From Brevibacillus laterosporus (GTDB taxonomy: Bacteria; Bacillota; Bacilli; Brevibacillales; Brevibacillaceae), in NCBI GenBank assembly GCA_007833815.1, contig CP033464.1:972501-1036500 (forward strand): a stretch of 64,000 nucleotides of DNA, read 5' to 3'. A model generated the notes under the pieces. That model was not told the origin of the DNA. It searched no databases and saw nothing but the letters and a program-made list of their open reading frames with translations. The position numbers and the translations under genes are program-made. Position 1 is the stretch's first letter. Each line of letters starts with the position of its first letter. This document shows positions 6,207 through 30,543 of the stretch, piece after piece.

Positions 6207-6861
6207 GCTTTTTTAATAAATCAATCTCCATTTGCTTTCTTCTGTTCTCAGCTTGAAGCAGCTTATTTTGTGCCCTCAGCTTCTCCACTTCGGACATCTC
6301 ATCTTCAGATTTTCGCTTTCCACGTTTATCCTGAAGTGCATCTACACCAGATTTAATGTATTTATTTGTCCAAGAATAAACTTGCTGATAGGATACCTGA
6401 AATTTCTGTGCGGTTTGGGCGTAATTGTGTTGATGTTCTATACAGAATCTGACGATTTCAATTCTTTCATCGTAAGTAGTTGCTCGTCCTTTTGTCATGA
6501 TTGGTGTTCCTCCTGTGCCGCAAGCTTTCGGCTTCTCATGACCATTATACTTCAGGATCCAGTTACGCAGTTGGCGGGTTGATTTGATGCCATATCTTTT
6601 ACATATATCCATGTGAGAACCACGACTAGCCAGATAATCCTCGACAGCTGTTTTCTTTAATTCTGTGGAATAGGAGGAGTTCTTGGATGTATTGAGCAAT
6701 CCGTTTGGACCTAATGATTGATAAGTTTGAAGCCATTGTTTAATAGATGGAAAGGAAACATCTAGAAGATTTGCTAAATGATTAAGCGAATCTTCCCCAC
6801 GAAGATATTTTTCAATAGCTGCAATCTTTTCTGACCCAGATATTTTTGCTTTATGGGACAT
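6178..6861 (-). CDS. IS3-family transposase OrfA
   Basis: A 227-residue DNA-binding subunit. It has two helix-turn-helix units (about residues 1-60 and 115-175, the second with YAQTAQKFQVSYQQVYSWTN) and a C-terminal leucine-zipper region (VEKLRAQNKLLQAENRRKQ, about 195-215), as in IS150-group OrfA. The start has AAGGAGGAGC upstream. Near its end a run of six A followed by G (minus strand, 6214-6208; AAAAAAG) is the classic slippery heptamer that gives OrfAB fusion by -1 frameshifting. Confidence 0.9.
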   Translation of the reverse strand: MSHKAKISGSEKIAAIEKYLRGEDSLNHLANLLDVSFPSIKQWLQTYQSLGPNGLLNTSKNSSYSTELKKTAVEDYLASRGSHMDICKRYGIKSTRQLRNWILKYNGHEKPKACGTGGTPIMTKGRATTYDERIEIVRFCIEHQHNYAQTAQKFQVSYQQVYSWTNKYIKSGVDALQDKRGKRKSEDEMSEVEKLRAQNKLLQAENRRKQMEIDLLKKLDEIQRRRF

Positions 6862-23966: not shown

Positions 23967-24932
23967 ATGCAACCATACATGCAATGGATGCCCACTGTAC
24001 GGAGGCACTCTGTAAAGTGGGCTTGGCTACTAACCTTTCAATATGTTTTGTATATTGTCATTCAACTATCGGCAACGAGAATATCGCAAGGGGCAGACGG
24101 TTCTTGGGAAATCCATATGTTGGCCAACATGGGTACGATACAAGCTTTATTATTGTGGGGGAATATTTGTCTCACATTACTGACGAGTATCCTGTTTTTA
24201 GTTGCTTTGTTTCGAGATCGGGGAGTCTCTGCTTCGTCTATTTGTATTGACGTAAACGGAAATGATTTTATTCATGCAGTAGCGTTTATGCAAGTGTTCT
24301 ATAATACCTCTATTTTTTTATATGGGACGGGAATCTTGACGTATCCGGTTTTTACAGTAGGAAGCATAGGGGGACTTTTTGAATCGGCTTTTTTGCAAGT
24401 GTTCTTGTTTATCTTTTGTTTCATTTGGTTTCGAGGCCGTTTAGAGTCCATAGGATTTGAAAAACCAACTGACATAGGAAGAATGTTTTTATCTATTATC
24501 GTTTTTTATCTGGGTATTACATTCGTATTAAGTTATGTGGTGGCACCATTGGCTGACCTGTTTCAAATTTCGTTAAGCTCCGCACGTGAAGATGACATAA
24601 CCCGTGAAATTAAAGATGCAAAACAAAACAGTATGTTAACTATGTTCTTTTCTTTTTTTATAACAGGTCTGCTTGTGCCAATCGCAGAAGAAATGATGTT
24701 TCGTGGAGTTCTTCAGACTTATCTAGTAAAGAAGTGGGGTGCCCTGTGCGGAATCCTTGTCGCCAGCTTTTGGTTTGCCATTATTCATATTGATTTAGCT
24801 TTGTTTCTACCTTTATTTATGATTGGTCTCTCACTAGGGATTGTCCGACACCGTTTTCATTCACTGTGGGCTTCGATTATTTTGCATTCAATCAACAATG
24901 TAGTTAGCGTAAGTCTTTCTTACCATTCCTAA
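23967..24932 (+). CDS. CPBP-family intramembrane metalloprotease
   Basis: A 321-residue polytopic membrane protein with about seven or eight hydrophobic segments. Abi/CAAX-type protease motifs are in the C-terminal half: EEMMFR (Glu241, Glu242, Arg246), FWFAIIH (His274) and HSINN (His307, Asn311). Such proteins cleave in the membrane in prenyl-CAAX processing, bacteriocin self-immunity or regulated proteolysis; the substrate here is not known. It is absent at this spot in B. subtilis, lying between recR and yaaL. The start follows GTAGGAGAG. Confidence 0.85.
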   Translation: MQPYMQWMPTVRRHSVKWAWLLTFQYVLYIVIQLSATRISQGADGSWEIHMLANMGTIQALLLWGNICLTLLTSILFLVALFRDRGVSASSICIDVNGNDFIHAVAFMQVFYNTSIFLYGTGILTYPVFTVGSIGGLFESAFLQVFLFIFCFIWFRGRLESIGFEKPTDIGRMFLSIIVFYLGITFVLSYVVAPLADLFQISLSSAREDDITREIKDAKQNSMLTMFFSFFITGLLVPIAEEMMFRGVLQTYLVKKWGALCGILVASFWFAIIHIDLALFLPLFMIGLSLGIVRHRFHSLWASIILHSINNVVSVSLSYHS

Positions 24933-24957
24933 ACTTCATGAAGTAAGGGGGATTTTC

Positions 24958-25194
24958 ATGAAATGGTTGAAAAAAAATGAGGGTGTGAAAGAGCAGCAGG
25001 TACAGCCTTATCATTTGCAAGAAGCGATTGCTAGTGCTTTACAACACTGGCAAAATGCTCAGCGTCATGTGGATTGCTCGGAGGGGTTTCAACAGGTTGA
25101 CCATTCTATTTATCAATTCCGACTAGCTGAAAAGCGTTATATGTACCTGCTTAAGCAAATACGGCGCCAAACTGAACAACAAAAAGAAGCATAG
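24958..25194 (+). CDS. yaaL: YaaL family protein (DUF2508)
   Basis: A 78-residue, probably alpha-helical, charged protein matching YaaL by size, position (before bofA) and the AEKRYMYLLKQIRRQ region. Function not known. It is 25 bases after the CPBP gene and 12 before bofA, so they are probably one operon. Confidence 0.85.
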   Translation: MKWLKKNEGVKEQQVQPYHLQEAIASALQHWQNAQRHVDCSEGFQQVDHSIYQFRLAEKRYMYLLKQIRRQTEQQKEA

Positions 25195-25206
25195 AGGAGG
25201 ACCCAA

Positions 25207-25476
25207 ATGAACACGGAAATCATGATAGCTGGAATTATCATTGGATTCCTAGTTTTGGTGGCACTCAGTAGATCAGTTTCCCGTCCACTACGCTGGACGG
25301 GAACTATTGCGCTTAATGTCATTATTGGAGCGATCCTCCTGTATTTCTCCAATTTTTTTGGTGAGATGGCTGGCTTTTATGTACCTATTAATCCAGTAAC
25401 AGCGATTATAGCAGGATTTCTACGTATTCCTGGCTTACTTGCGCTGGTTGTCATTCGCATTTTTCTGTTGAGCTAA
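25207..25476 (+). CDS. bofA: Pro-sigma-K processing inhibitor BofA
   Basis: Integral membrane protein of 89 residues that keeps SpoIVFB inactive in the outer forespore membrane until a forespore signal arrives. Two or three hydrophobic segments are visible, and the C-terminal INPVTAIIAGFLRIPG is the family signature. AGAGGAGG lies just before the ATG. It follows yaaL as in B. subtilis. Confidence 0.93.
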   Translation: MNTEIMIAGIIIGFLVLVALSRSVSRPLRWTGTIALNVIIGAILLYFSNFFGEMAGFYVPINPVTAIIAGFLRIPGLLALVVIRIFLLS

Positions 25477-25479
25477 GCA

Positions 25480-26004
25480 TTAACTTTTTCCATCAGTCAT
25501 AAGAAAAGCCAGGCTTGTTTTTTCATATTTCACATAGGCTTCCTGTGGATGACGCAATGAAAAGAGCAACGGAATCAGACGTGGAAGTAAACTAAATATG
25601 GTTACACATACTAGAAAATGTCCATAGGGGGGCGACAACCATGGAAAAAGAGCTAGGCAAGCGAATAATACACCTAGACAAGTCACTGTCTCCAACCGTC
25701 TGTAGCTTGCCAGTGAAACCATGAGTGAATGAGTAGCGCCCCACCAAGAGGAGAGCCAGAGCAAGTTCGATACTCGAAATGGCCGGGATAGAACAGAGGC
25801 ATTCGCCCAAAAGGCGGTTATATGTAAAAGTGGAATGAGAATAAGAAAACAAAGGGAAAGAATCAAAGAATGCCAAGGCAGAGTTCGCCAGAGGTCAAGT
25901 ATAAAAGTGGCCGTAATGATCCCGATTAGTTGCAACAGATAACCACCTATTCCCCAACGAAAACGATATAGCAAGCGGTAACTGTAAATGGTCTGTTCCT
26001 TCAT
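25480..26004 (-). CDS. Polytopic membrane protein, unknown function
   Basis: A 174-residue protein with four or five hydrophobic segments (about 20-36, 45-62, 80-100, 108-125 and 130-150) and a positively charged N terminus, without a family signature I recognise. ATG at 26004 is chosen because AGGAGG lies seven bases upstream; a TTG three bases earlier is less likely. It converges on bofA, whose stop is three bases away, and diverges from the phosphodiesterase gene at 26144. In B. subtilis an rRNA operon, not this gene, follows bofA. Confidence 0.75.
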   Translation of the reverse strand: MKEQTIYSYRLLYRFRWGIGGYLLQLIGIITATFILDLWRTLPWHSLILSLCFLILIPLLHITAFWANASVLSRPFRVSNLLWLSSWWGATHSLMVSLASYRRLETVTCLGVLFACLALFPWLSPPYGHFLVCVTIFSLLPRLIPLLFSLRHPQEAYVKYEKTSLAFLMTDGKS

Positions 26005-26143
26005 CAACAGGCCTCCTTTTTGTTCGTTCTATAGTATTATCGGTAGGTTGTATAGATAATTGTATCCTTCAATTGACAGGTAAATATAGGGTTATTATGA
26101 TAGGAACTAATTGGTAATGTCAGGAAGATGGTGAGGAGATGCC

Positions 26144-27640
26144 ATGAATACGGCTTTCAATAAGGAAAGGATCGCCATGGACTGCTGGAGTATTTTCCGT
26201 CAGGGAAACATATTTACTCCCCTGCTCGTGGTAGGGGCTTTTTTGTGGTTTCATTTCTCTGAATGGTTAGACGGTTTGTTTTGGCAAAGTTTTTTTGTAT
26301 CTCTGTTGTTATGCTTTCCTATTTTCTTATTACTGTTTTTCTACGACTATCCCTTGCATATTCGCTGGTTTTTACTAGGCCCTCTGTTTTTTGCAGGAAT
26401 ACTCTGGTACAAATCTTTTATGTTTAGCATGGTTTTATATGCGCTATGTCTTTATCTAGTTTGGGCTACCGCGTTATGGGGAATCTCCCGTTTTTATATA
26501 AGTAAGCATAACAGATATCCTTTTCAGGTGATGCGTTTTATTAAATTGCTTACTATGGCTAATGACTCAAGTAGTGGCAATTTACTTGAACAATTGCCCA
26601 AAACGTGGATTTTGCTAATAGCAATGCAGGAAGCCTTTGGGGCATGGCAAGAATGGACTGTGAGTGAGAGCATCTTATCTCACTTTGTATTTGTTTTTGT
26701 TTTATTCTTTTACAGTTATGCTATTCATCAATTATTTTTTACATGGAAGCCTGTTGAGATGAAAAATTTCGCTAATAAAATTACTAAACAGTTTGTTTTT
26801 CCAGTTGAACGCGTCTATTTGGTGGTATTGGATGGATGCAATAAAGAACAACTGTACGAAGCACACACCCCTTTTCTTGACTGGTTACAACGTACAGGAA
26901 CGAATTGGAGGAAGGTAGAGAGTGTATATCCAGCTGACACAAAAGCTTGTTATACCTCCCTGTTGACTGGTACCTATCCGTCTGAACATCAGATCGATAT
27001 CCATCTTGGTAATCGAAAGGCATTGAAGGTAGAGACTATCTTTGATGCTTTACAACAAGCAGGAAAAAAAGGAACTATATTGGCTGAGGGTAGGTTAAGT
27101 GGTCTATTTGGTAAGAAGGTTCCTAGTGATTATGTATGGGGGGCTGAACAGCCTGATGTCTATCGCATGGAGCAAGCTATTCAAGTTGTAAACGAAGAAA
27201 ATCCAGACTTTCTTCTTGTGCAAATGAGGGATATTTACCAGACGGGGAGTACATGCGGAGTTTATTGTGACGAGTATGTTAAAAAAATAAATGAAGCAGA
27301 TCAAATGATCGCTTGGTTCTATCATCAACTAGACAAGCTTGGGAAACTAAATCAAGCAGTGTTTATTGTTTGTTCCGATCATGGACAAGCTATGGGAATG
27401 GGTGGGCAAGGACATTTGAGTCATAAGGAACGTTTTATTTCTCTTATCATGCAAGGAACGTCTATTCATAGAGGACGGATCATTACTACACAGCGTTCGA
27501 TAGTGTCTGTTGCAGCTACAATTGCTTATCTTTTAGCAGTTCCCTATCCAAAACAAGCGAAGGGACCTGTTCTGTTAGAAGGAATGATAAGTGTGAACAA
27601 ATTATATGATAGGCAAGCGGAAGGAGCAGATCTTACGTGA
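26144..27640 (+). CDS. Membrane-anchored alkaline-phosphatase-superfamily protein
   Basis: 498 residues. The first 210 contain about five or six hydrophobic segments; the remainder is a type I phosphodiesterase/nucleotide pyrophosphatase-like domain. The motif order fits: VYLVVLDGCN (metal Asp), YPADTKACYTSLLTGTYP (nucleophile Thr in TSLLTG region), and SDHGQ (metal Asp and His). The usual DxxGHxxG motif reads DIYQTGSTCG and lacks the His, so catalysis is uncertain. The topology would put the domain outside or in the cytoplasm depending on segment count. Its stop overlaps the next gene's GTG start. Confidence 0.75.
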   Translation: MNTAFNKERIAMDCWSIFRQGNIFTPLLVVGAFLWFHFSEWLDGLFWQSFFVSLLLCFPIFLLLFFYDYPLHIRWFLLGPLFFAGILWYKSFMFSMVLYALCLYLVWATALWGISRFYISKHNRYPFQVMRFIKLLTMANDSSSGNLLEQLPKTWILLIAMQEAFGAWQEWTVSESILSHFVFVFVLFFYSYAIHQLFFTWKPVEMKNFANKITKQFVFPVERVYLVVLDGCNKEQLYEAHTPFLDWLQRTGTNWRKVESVYPADTKACYTSLLTGTYPSEHQIDIHLGNRKALKVETIFDALQQAGKKGTILAEGRLSGLFGKKVPSDYVWGAEQPDVYRMEQAIQVVNEENPDFLLVQMRDIYQTGSTCGVYCDEYVKKINEADQMIAWFYHQLDKLGKLNQAVFIVCSDHGQAMGMGGQGHLSHKERFISLIMQGTSIHRGRIITTQRSIVSVAATIAYLLAVPYPKQAKGPVLLEGMISVNKLYDRQAEGADLT

Positions 27641-28740
27641 GCCAGACAACGCTTGTGTACCTGCACTCGGTAGCTCGCATATCGTTACCTCAGGAATGTC
27701 TAGAGGTAATAAGCGCATGCGAGATAAATATCATTTCTGTAAAGGAATGGGAGCAGACAAAAGCTGAAATTTCCGGTTGGCTATTTACTGACAATCTGTC
27801 ACTCATACAGTGGCAGCAGTTTACATGTGAGATAAATAGGTGCATTAATACTAAGGAATCAAGCCAAACGCGCTATCTTGTACTTCTAGCAGGAGATAAG
27901 CTTACTGATAGTGTGGCGTATGAGATTGTAAAGTGGTTGCAACCGTTTAAGGAGTCGGTAGAAGTCGTTCGGTTACTGTGCTGGACGGAACAAAAAAAGG
28001 CTATTATCGGCAGCAATGCTTTTGAATGCCTAGCTGCAAGTGACTTTACAGCGAGGAATTGGCACGATCGTTTACGGCGAGGGTTTGCTGTACATTGTTA
28101 TATTTCATTCGTATGCAGATATGAAGAAGCAGTTGAAATCGCTTGGGCACAACAGATATTGTTGAATCAAAAAGCAAGGTTTTATCATATGCTAGCATTC
28201 CGATGTGATGAGGTAGGGGCTAGAGCAAATATCGTAGGACAAGGTCTAGGTATGGATAAACGCATTGGACAAAAGTGGTTATTTCCAAATGTGTATGACG
28301 AGAAGACTCTACAGCTGGAACAAGAATGGCTTGAGCAGGAATGGAACCGTTTGTTGCAACAAGTGAGCGTGAAGCGTATAGCTATCTGGGGATTTTCTTC
28401 TATCTTTGCACCTGATATGCTTGCGCAAATTACCCGCTTCGAGGTTTCCTGCTACTTGCAAGCGTGTCAGCAAAAAACGAACAATCTACCTAGAGATTGG
28501 CATTATTGCAAAACCCCTCTTGAAGCAGCAGAGATGGCAGATGCTCTACTTATTGTAAGACACGATGAGGATATTCTAAGTGTACGTTTAGACAACTTAT
28601 ACGAAAGAATGGCAAAGCCCTATGTTTTGGATATAGTGGATTGTTATCCGCCAGATGAGGCAAAACTTGAGAAAATATGCTACAGAACACTTGGTCAAAA
28701 GCCGAACGTTTGGAATGGATTAGATTATAATGGGATATAA
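27637..28740 (+). CDS. Degenerate UDP-sugar dehydrogenase-like protein
   Basis: 367 residues. About 160-235 resemble the central helical domain of UDP-glucose/GDP-mannose dehydrogenases (LLNQKARFYHMLAFRCDEVG, then GMDKRIGQKWL), and about 245-360 resemble the C-terminal UDP-binding domain (RIAIWGFSSIFAPD, ADALLIVRHDED, KPYVLDIVDCYPPD). The N-terminal NAD-binding GxGxxG fold is not recognisable and the loop carrying the catalytic Cys (GYGGSCFPKD in the family) is missing. It therefore looks like a pseudoenzyme. Starting at GTG inside a GTGA overlap, it is translationally coupled to the phosphodiesterase-like gene. The family call is by eye and should be tested. Confidence 0.6.
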   Translation: MSQTTLVYLHSVARISLPQECLEVISACEINIISVKEWEQTKAEISGWLFTDNLSLIQWQQFTCEINRCINTKESSQTRYLVLLAGDKLTDSVAYEIVKWLQPFKESVEVVRLLCWTEQKKAIIGSNAFECLAASDFTARNWHDRLRRGFAVHCYISFVCRYEEAVEIAWAQQILLNQKARFYHMLAFRCDEVGARANIVGQGLGMDKRIGQKWLFPNVYDEKTLQLEQEWLEQEWNRLLQQVSVKRIAIWGFSSIFAPDMLAQITRFEVSCYLQACQQKTNNLPRDWHYCKTPLEAAEMADALLIVRHDEDILSVRLDNLYERMAKPYVLDIVDCYPPDEAKLEKICYRTLGQKPNVWNGLDYNGI

Positions 28741-28776
28741 TGGTTGATAAGCTTAGCGAAAAGGTAGGTGTCCCAT

Positions 28777-28959
28777 ATGGAAGACCACTCTCATCGCTGC
28801 ATTATCTGCAACAGGGAACAATCCGTTGGTATAGCCATTTGTAACCAATTTATTTGTCATACTTGTGAGCAAGAAATGGTCAAAACCGACGTACACGATG
28901 AACGTTATCCCTTTTATATTAAACAGATGCGGCAGATCTGGTTTAAAAAGAATGCATAA
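28777..28959 (+). CDS. csfB: Anti-sigma factor Gin (CsfB)
   Basis: Forespore protein of 60 residues that inhibits sigma-G (and sigma-E in forespore) until engulfment is complete. Two CXXC pairs, CIICN and CHTCE (about 8-11 and 27-30), bind zinc. The start at ATG 28777 follows AAGGTAGGTG; a GTG nine bases upstream lies inside that site. In B. subtilis csfB is followed by xpaC-yaaN-yaaO; here xpaC and yaaN are absent and yaaO comes next. Confidence 0.92.
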   Translation: MEDHSHRCIICNREQSVGIAICNQFICHTCEQEMVKTDVHDERYPFYIKQMRQIWFKKNA

Positions 28960-28966
28960 TAACATG

Positions 28967-29003
28967 AAAAAGAGGCATGTCAATGGACAATGCCTCTTTT
29001 CTT
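28967..29003 (+). terminator. Terminator of csfB
   Basis: AAAAGAGGCAT and ATGCCTCTTTT pair around GTCAATGGACA and are followed by CTT. Confidence 0.75.
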
Positions 29004-29067
29004 ATGGGCTTTTAGACTTTTGAACATGGTACAATAGGGGATACCGAAACAAAAGGACGTGGAAAAG

Positions 29068-30543
29068 ATGATACAAAATCAGGAAGATTTTTGGGAGAGA
29101 CAACGCAAAGCTCCGTTGTTTGATGCGTTACAAAGGCATGCAAGACAAAATCCCCATCCTTTTCATGTACCTGGGCATAAGATGGGGAGAAGCTTCGATA
29201 AGGAAGCAAAGCCGTTTTTTGAAAAATATTTGTCTGTTGATTTGACAGAGATCACAGGATTAGATGATTTGCACCAACCAGAAGATATTATTGCTCAGGC
29301 GCAACAGTTGGCTGCGGAAGCATATGGAGCTGAGGAAACCAGATTTTTGGTAGGTGGAACAACAGTAGGGAATCTGGCTACGATCATGTCGATTTGTCAA
29401 CCTGGAGATAAGATCATTGTTCAACGTAATTGTCATAAATCCGTCTATCATGGATTGATGCTTGCGAAAGCGGAACCGATTTTTGTTGTACCTGCCGTAG
29501 ATGCTGAGACCGGCATTGCCGCAGGGGTGCGACGTGAAGATGTAGAGCGACTTTTAATTGAGCATCCTGACTGCAAAGCTGTTTTCCTCACGAATCCTAC
29601 TTATTATGGGATGGGTATTGATTTAGAAAAAATGGCTACGGTTGTTCATCGCTACCAGATTCCTTTAGTCATTGATGAGGCACATGGTGCTCACTATGGT
29701 TTCCATCCAAACTTACCTGCTTCAGCTATGCAGAGTGGAGCCGATATTTCTATCCAATCAACTCATAAGATGGGAACCGCTTTTACGATGGGGTCTATGC
29801 TCCATATTCAAGGAGAGTTCATTGATCGTAGCAGGTTGTATCGTTATCTGACAATGTTGCAATCATCAAGCCCATCTTATCCGCTGATGGCATCCCTTGA
29901 TTTAGCACGGCGACATATGGTGCTGGAGGGGCAACATGAGCTGGAAAAGGCTATTCAACTTATTGAGAAGACGAAAGAACGCCTTAGCCAGTTCGATTGG
30001 TTAACAGTAGCCGGCTGGAAAAAACAAACTGGTTATCAGACACTTGATCCGCTAAGAATCGTAGTCAATTTGCAATTATCCCAATTATCGGGGTTTGAAT
30101 TGCAAACAAAACTAGAAGAAGAATATATTTATACAGAGTTAGCAGGGTTACATCATCTCTTGTTACTAGGTTCTACAGGAACGACAGAAGCCGATTGTAA
30201 AAGGCTACTTACTGTTATGGAGGAGCTTTCGAAACAAGCGAAGGGAGAGGGTCTACGCGCTTTTGAAACGGGGTTAGTCTCTTCCTGCTTTTTACGTAAA
30301 GTAGCCATGAGTATGCATGTAGCAGTAGAAGAGGAAGCGGAGTCTCTGCTACTAGAAGAGGCACAGGGGCGCATCTGTGCTGAAATGGTCACCCCATATC
30401 CCCCAGGTATACCAATGATTGTTCCGGGTGAAATACTAGATGAGCAGGTGATTTCTCTTTTACAAAACTTGCAGATAAAAGAGGCCCGCTTTCATGGGGT
30501 GAAGGACGCTACCATAACAACCATTCAAGTCATAAAAAGATAA
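29068..30543 (+). CDS. yaaO: PLP-dependent Orn/Lys/Arg decarboxylase-like protein (YaaO)
   Basis: A 491-residue fold-type I PLP enzyme of the ornithine/lysine/arginine decarboxylase family, as YaaO of B. subtilis. The PLP lysine is in [10 protein letters not shown] (Lys234), and [10 protein letters not shown] supplies the Asp that binds the pyridine nitrogen. The C-terminal domain is short. Substrate is not proven; B. subtilis YaaO is unassigned while SpeA is the related arginine decarboxylase. The ATG at 29068 is ten bases after AAAAGGA; a GTG at 29059 is too close. Confidence 0.85.

Follow-up and report, generated by a model that had tools for sequence, protein, structure and literature searches.

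In Bacillus subtilis, the anti-sigma gene csfB (gin) is driven by sigma-F from the boxes GTATA and GGGGAGGCTA, according to PMC4383634, and in human uridine diphosphate (UDP)-glucose dehydrogenase (UGDH), Arg260, which is the arginine of a D-x-R-[IV]-G motif, is described in PMC3184952 as reaching into its partner protomer's active site. Here we describe a UGDH-like gene located directly upstream of csfB, at positions 27637-28740 of a 64,000-nucleotide stretch of Brevibacillus laterosporus (contig CP033464.1, positions 972,501 to 1,036,500; hereafter, the window). As our best explanation, to which we assign a probability of roughly 0.55, this gene would encode a living dimeric protein that derives from UGDH, has no catalytic activity and serves a separate purpose, probably during sporulation.

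The product was found to be a UGDH homologue across all three domains, and structure prediction gave it the three-domain UGDH fold with a shrunken nicotinamide adenine dinucleotide (NAD) domain. A preliminary description of this DNA had recognized the central and C-terminal UGDH-like regions and the missing catalytic Cys loop, and rightly so, but had considered the NAD-binding fold wholly absent, whereas a shrunken domain remains; the likeness to UDP-sugar dehydrogenases that it proposed as a check is seen in the predicted fold. Compared with UGDHs such as TuaD, BceC, UgdG and the human enzyme, the protein has the same fold and domain order, the central dimer domain and D-x-R-[IV]-G, but it lacks GxGxxG and the equivalents of Thr118, Glu145, Lys204, Asn208, Cys260, Asp264 and Lys320 (numbered as in Streptococcus pyogenes UGDH), and its NAD domain is shortened. 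In the alignment of 36 family members, the first Gly of the NAD motif occurs in none; the catalytic Cys position is a gap in 31, including the window, and holds Cys in one (L036), outside any GGxC loop; and equivalents of Lys204, Asn208, Asp264 and Lys320 occur in 0/36 at each position. Residue tables, which took in 13 other dehydrogenases minus two rows (one for the second such gene of the genome itself, one for the G034 gene), indicated that the UDP-contacting residues are lost. D-x-R-[IV]-G is kept in all 36, and the invariant residues include K179, D207, R209, W214, W231, D332 and E341. The protein scored 41.6 bits against the NCBIfam TuaD model, whose cut-off of 700 was also missed by the catalytic-looking L163 and L132. 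The Pfam search suggested for this protein and the neighboring phosphodiesterase-like protein gave a divided answer, with the phosphodiesterase above the cut-off (PF01663, 67.5 bits; cut-off 23) and the UGDH domains below it.

Both proteins are alive, with ratios of nonsynonymous to synonymous substitution rates (dN/dS) of 0.16-0.34. For the UGDH-like gene, dN/dS ranged from 0.205 to 0.27 across six pairs within the B. laterosporus group and from 0.17 to 0.34 across 15 pairs taken from another genus; for the phosphodiesterase, it was 0.157-0.21 in six pairs. The ratio of nonsynonymous to synonymous differences (pN/pS) of the UGDH-like gene among eight close genomes, with L060 left out because a 2-codon insertion put it out of register, was 0.41 in the N-terminal, 0.11 in the central and 0.28 in the C-terminal region.

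The gene was present in 36/36 genomes of the family (60 genomes searched) and 40/40 genomes of the order, and it lay directly upstream of csfB in all 36 mapped loci (35 fetched plus the window). A contig search with the window protein as a single sequence gave no relative, whereas a search with the family alignment found 25 loci, of which 24 come from Brevibacillus records and the remaining one from a record labelled Anoxybacillus sediminis; the nearest was B. laterosporus (72%). Degenerate orthologues occupy the same position in three other families. In a class-wide search of 399 genomes, at least 159 had matches, mostly in the stretch common to ordinary UGDHs; of 13 regions fetched from these matches, 11 were csfB loci, ten with a single UGDH-like open reading frame (ORF) and one (G086) with a split one. 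Among 20 more csfB loci, mostly from other families, the gene was found in two (G046 and G116), and one (L154) was too short to decide. Because loci outside Brevibacillus were picked for matching or for carrying csfB, counts for families f8, f12 and f27 are not rates, and the f27 loss counts are based on four genomes. As a separate observation, other ORFs of 369-398 amino acids, without match to the queries, precede csfB in three other families (L151 348-1457, L153 3756-4952 and L157 3862-5013).

A readable origin for the gene was provided by G198 (L132), in which bofA is followed by GT39, a flippase-like PF03706 protein, a phosphodiesterase, GT2, a 440-amino-acid UGDH with every motif, and csfB. 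The intact UGDH of G198 closes a surface-glycan cluster, and the phosphodiesterase and UGDH-like genes of the window can therefore be seen as cluster relics. In the family of G198, G168 keeps GT39, phosphodiesterase and GT2 with a UGDH lacking the Cys, and in G178 and G072 the sole remnant is a shorter, degenerate UGDH; in f8, f12 and Brevibacillus, the gene is further decayed. Pfam domains above the cut-off numbered three in L132 and L131, two in L133 and one (barely) in L134; those of L130, L138, L058 and L042 were below the cut-off, and L054 matched no family. Within Brevibacillus, L037 and L039 keep a short-chain dehydrogenase/reductase (SDR) epimerase, the flippase-like gene, phosphodiesterase and GT2, and L031 and L058 keep at least the latter three. 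G014 has a similar cluster with an intact UGDH, away from its csfB locus. In a maximum-likelihood tree, 17 csfB-locus genes split from 13 other nucleotide-sugar dehydrogenases, including ones from the same genomes, with support of 100/100. The tree has long branches, which may account for part of the clustering of the fast-evolving relics, but this clustering is supported by synteny and by the fact that the intact G198 gene joins them.

The window features to which the following paragraphs refer are these:

25207-25476, plus strand: bofA, the upstream anchor of the locus (PF07441, E 1.9e-21).
25480-26007, minus strand: membrane protein of 174-175 amino acids with about four hydrophobic segments, without Pfam match; divergent neighbor.
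26144-27640, plus strand: membrane phosphodiesterase-like protein (PF01663) with a degenerate metal site; putative glycan-cluster relic.
27619-27626, plus strand: GGAAGGAG, read from the sequence as the ribosome-binding site for the UGDH-like gene, 10 nt ahead of its GTG.
27637-28740, plus strand: UGDH-derived, putatively non-catalytic protein, 367 amino acids, GTG start.
28259-28273, plus strand: D-x-R-[IV]-G motif, codons 207-211 with preceding context; D207, R209 and G211 invariant.
28713-28742, plus strand: predicted sigma-F-type csfB promoter, GAATG (28713-28717), 15 nt, GGATATAATG (28733-28742); overlaps the last codons and stop of the UGDH-like gene.
28768-28959, plus strand: csfB (gin), anti-sigma factor, start ATG 28777 or GTG 28768 (PF10764, E 2.2e-18).

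We propose that an ancestral surface-glycan cluster of GT39, flippase, membrane phosphodiesterase, GT2 and UGDH, in some lineages also with an SDR epimerase, lay between bofA and csfB, and that 27637-28740 would descend from its closing UDP-sugar dehydrogenase. The NAD motif, the catalytic Cys and the UDP-contacting residues have been lost in a graded manner, with the central dimer domain retained and the gene under purifying selection. The catalytic parts are lost and yet the gene is kept beside csfB in the Brevibacillus genomes examined; therefore, it probably has a new, non-enzymatic job. Its product would now be a folded dimer devoid of enzyme activity, probably produced during sporulation at about the stage at which csfB is expressed, and would bind a partner or ligand. 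The phosphodiesterase would be a second relic, a non-catalytic membrane protein in the B. laterosporus group, presumably dispensable for the role of the UGDH-like protein. A more specific version, which we put forward only tentatively, is that a UGDH whose catalysis was lost in several lineages was recruited as a forespore-stage factor next to csfB, acting as a UGDH-fold dimer in the switch from sigma-F to sigma-G and perhaps reporting the sugar-nucleotide or envelope-glycan state.

Several results weigh against the proposal of a living non-catalytic dimer. G088 (f12) has csfB and the membrane protein without the gene between them, and the copy in G003, a family genome, is short and N-terminally truncated. 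Constraint is looser than on the housekeeping neighbors recR, OKRDC and tmk (dN/dS 0-0.105), and from the dN/dS and pN/pS values the protein is therefore kept, but less tightly than housekeeping proteins. A predicted sigma-F promoter precedes csfB, with a two-box score of 12-13 out of 13 in 45/46 csfB loci and 11 in one, on a sigma-F consensus against which a fraction of 0-0.27 of 60 plain shuffles per locus score as well, making the pattern at any single locus just modestly rarer than in shuffled sequence. Upstream of the UGDH-like gene itself, no convincing promoter emerged from a strict two-box sigma-F scan. The -10-like pattern GGNNANRMTA, which also fits GGGGAGGCTA, stands before the gene in 13/25 unlike loci (shuffled mean 1.13, maximum 5 in 300; 0/36 control stretches), but was picked after the sequences had been seen. 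As a side observation, several closely related genomes have a putative hairpin followed or accompanied by a run of T ahead of the UGDH-like gene (L054, about 6540-6600, and loci like it), without Rfam match.

Among other explanations, the protein could pair with a catalytic UGDH and lend or withhold the trans-acting Arg of D-x-R-[IV]-G, thereby regulating UDP-glucuronate supply. This hetero-oligomer is attractive because of that Arg, which in human UGDH acts across protomers, as stated in PMC3184952; the motif Asp and Arg are kept in 36/36 with the cis-acting residues lost, and constraint is strongest in the central domain. However, when a TuaD-type UGDH was looked for in 18 genomes, G012, G013 and G015 (3/10 family genomes tested) and G042 of another family were found to keep the gene without one, their only TuaD relatives being at most 32% identical and scoring as UDP-N-acetylmannosamine type where tested. 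In addition, the Arg is kept in only 1/4 f8 and 1/4 f12 sequences, and the role of the motif may be structural; hence, we consider such pairing unlikely.

A second alternative is that only a cis-element matters, with the ORF persisting owing to the csfB promoter in its 3' end and the protein being dispensable. The last 12 codons of the gene show zero synonymous differences among eight genomes, which was matched by 3/2000 random 12-codon sets, and the proportion of synonymous differences (pS) was 0.22 outside the last 30 codons. The -35 box, GAATG in 35/36 family loci and GTATG in one, starts within the ORF in 36/36 and is followed by 15 nt and then GG[AG]TATAATG or alike; ten loci outside the family have a similar box pair before csfB. 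A cis-element alone is nevertheless rather improbable, as pN/pS is still 0.28 when the final 30 codons are excluded and falls to 0.11 for the central domain, and the ORF is open in all 36 family loci. Beside the promoter, ACGAACGTTTGG (28693-28717), before the csfB -35, is conserved past the promoter boxes in family loci, and it might be a regulator site.

Real selection and a complete fold, together with invariant residues such as K179, D207, R209, W214, W231, D332 and E341, would also suit a protein that has remained an enzyme but catalyzes a different reaction or acts on a different substrate. That the NAD motif, the nucleophile and the UDP-pocket residues are all gone makes this about equally doubtful, and K179 and W231 are not known to be catalytic in the UGDH family.

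The preliminary description had instead viewed the two genes as a translationally coupled pair of degenerate enzymes, sensing or scaffolding for a nucleotide sugar or lipid-linked glycan. The degeneracy of both, under purifying selection, was confirmed, including the missing His of DxxGH in the phosphodiesterase. The two-metal ligand set of the phosphodiesterase is complete in 11/11 other homologues and degenerate in 4/4 of the B. laterosporus group: in DxxGH, Tyr replaces the Asp and Ser, Ile or Met replaces the His; Gln or Arg takes the place of the first His in GGHGHL; and in 3/4, Asn replaces the first Asp. All of these positions are expected to be metal residues. In these four genomes, the genes are adjacent, on the same strand and both under purifying selection, as a pair would require. 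However, GTGA is shared by the phosphodiesterase 3' end and the UGDH-like start in the window, where the junction is 46 bp shorter than in relatives, hence the overlap; the three nearest relatives have a 27-nt gap, and the coupling claim thus lacks support. Only 8/36 family loci include the phosphodiesterase (G014 has one elsewhere), and the UGDH-like gene stands without it in the other 28; G057 and G058 have a glycan cluster with phosphodiesterase beside csfB without UGDH there; and L031, L037, L039 and L058 have an intact phosphodiesterase and a dead UGDH separated by GT2. The two genes therefore occur independently, an outcome that the preliminary description had itself named as refuting its view, and with the UDP-contacting residues gone, a sensing pair appears quite improbable. 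A pseudogene on its way out, which graded decay over families, truncation in G003 and splitting in G086 might suggest, is very improbable given dN/dS below 0.35 in all 21 pairs and presence in 40/40 genomes of the order.

The phosphodiesterase retains the domain order, the PxxT nucleophile Thr and the DHG motif of the ectonucleotide pyrophosphatase/phosphodiesterase and alkaline-phosphatase superfamily, and differs by membrane helices in front of the domain and, in the B. laterosporus group, by loss of the Asp and His of DxxGH and one GGHGHL His. Its structure model was poor (predicted local distance difference test 61.4, predicted template modelling score 0.54). A role in the cytoplasm or outside, for example in carrier-lipid release, is conceivable purely by analogy with UshA and UpsH of B. 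subtilis (PMC11898649). In other Bacilli, phosphodiesterase and GT2 stand with GT39, an FTR1 iron permease and a secreted YSYGNP protein of no Pfam family (L088 8105-15639, L089 6338-11912 and L090 3117-8831), an arrangement that looks like a glycan cluster linked with iron transport.

The bofA-csfB interval of the window holds the three genes where they had been placed, although not as a single cassette, with the membrane protein being on the opposite strand. The latter is probably a divergent neighbor outside the unit; Pfam and NCBIfam searches gave it no family, and it adjoins the UGDH-like gene in 35/36 family loci. The f8 and f12 loci also have such a membrane protein, as judged from its position or from weak similarity. 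A CPBP (Rce1-like) intramembrane protease gene lies between recR and a DUF2508 gene (23967-24932), also in fetched family loci. Rfam searches of positions 24000-30000 and five loci gave no match.

At one chromosomal place, a series can thus be read in four spore-former families from an intact glycan-cluster UDP-sugar dehydrogenase to a conserved non-catalytic protein. If the protein does act in sporulation, it would be an uncharacterized factor whose gene immediately precedes that of a well-studied anti-sigma factor, easily tested by deletion; the promoter-ORF overlap must be told apart from a protein role before any deletion is interpretable.

Non-catalytic relatives of enzymes are a known kind of protein. 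A search of open-access literature by title and abstract start found no report of a non-catalytic UGDH at csfB, and in the literature searched there appears to be no description of this protein, of where it is encoded or of its graded origin. As in the B. subtilis csfB promoter (PMC4383634), two boxes 15-16 nt apart precede csfB, but here the -35 is GAATG in 35/36 family loci and lies inside the upstream ORF. Multi-component transmembrane glycosylation systems, as outlined in PMC8035078, combine a GT-A, a flippase and a GT-C; the ancestral cluster likewise would have had GT2, a possible flippase and a GT39/PMT_2-type protein, but differs in that its membrane protein is PF03706 rather than GtrA and in the additional phosphodiesterase and UGDH, and the window keeps only these two as relics.
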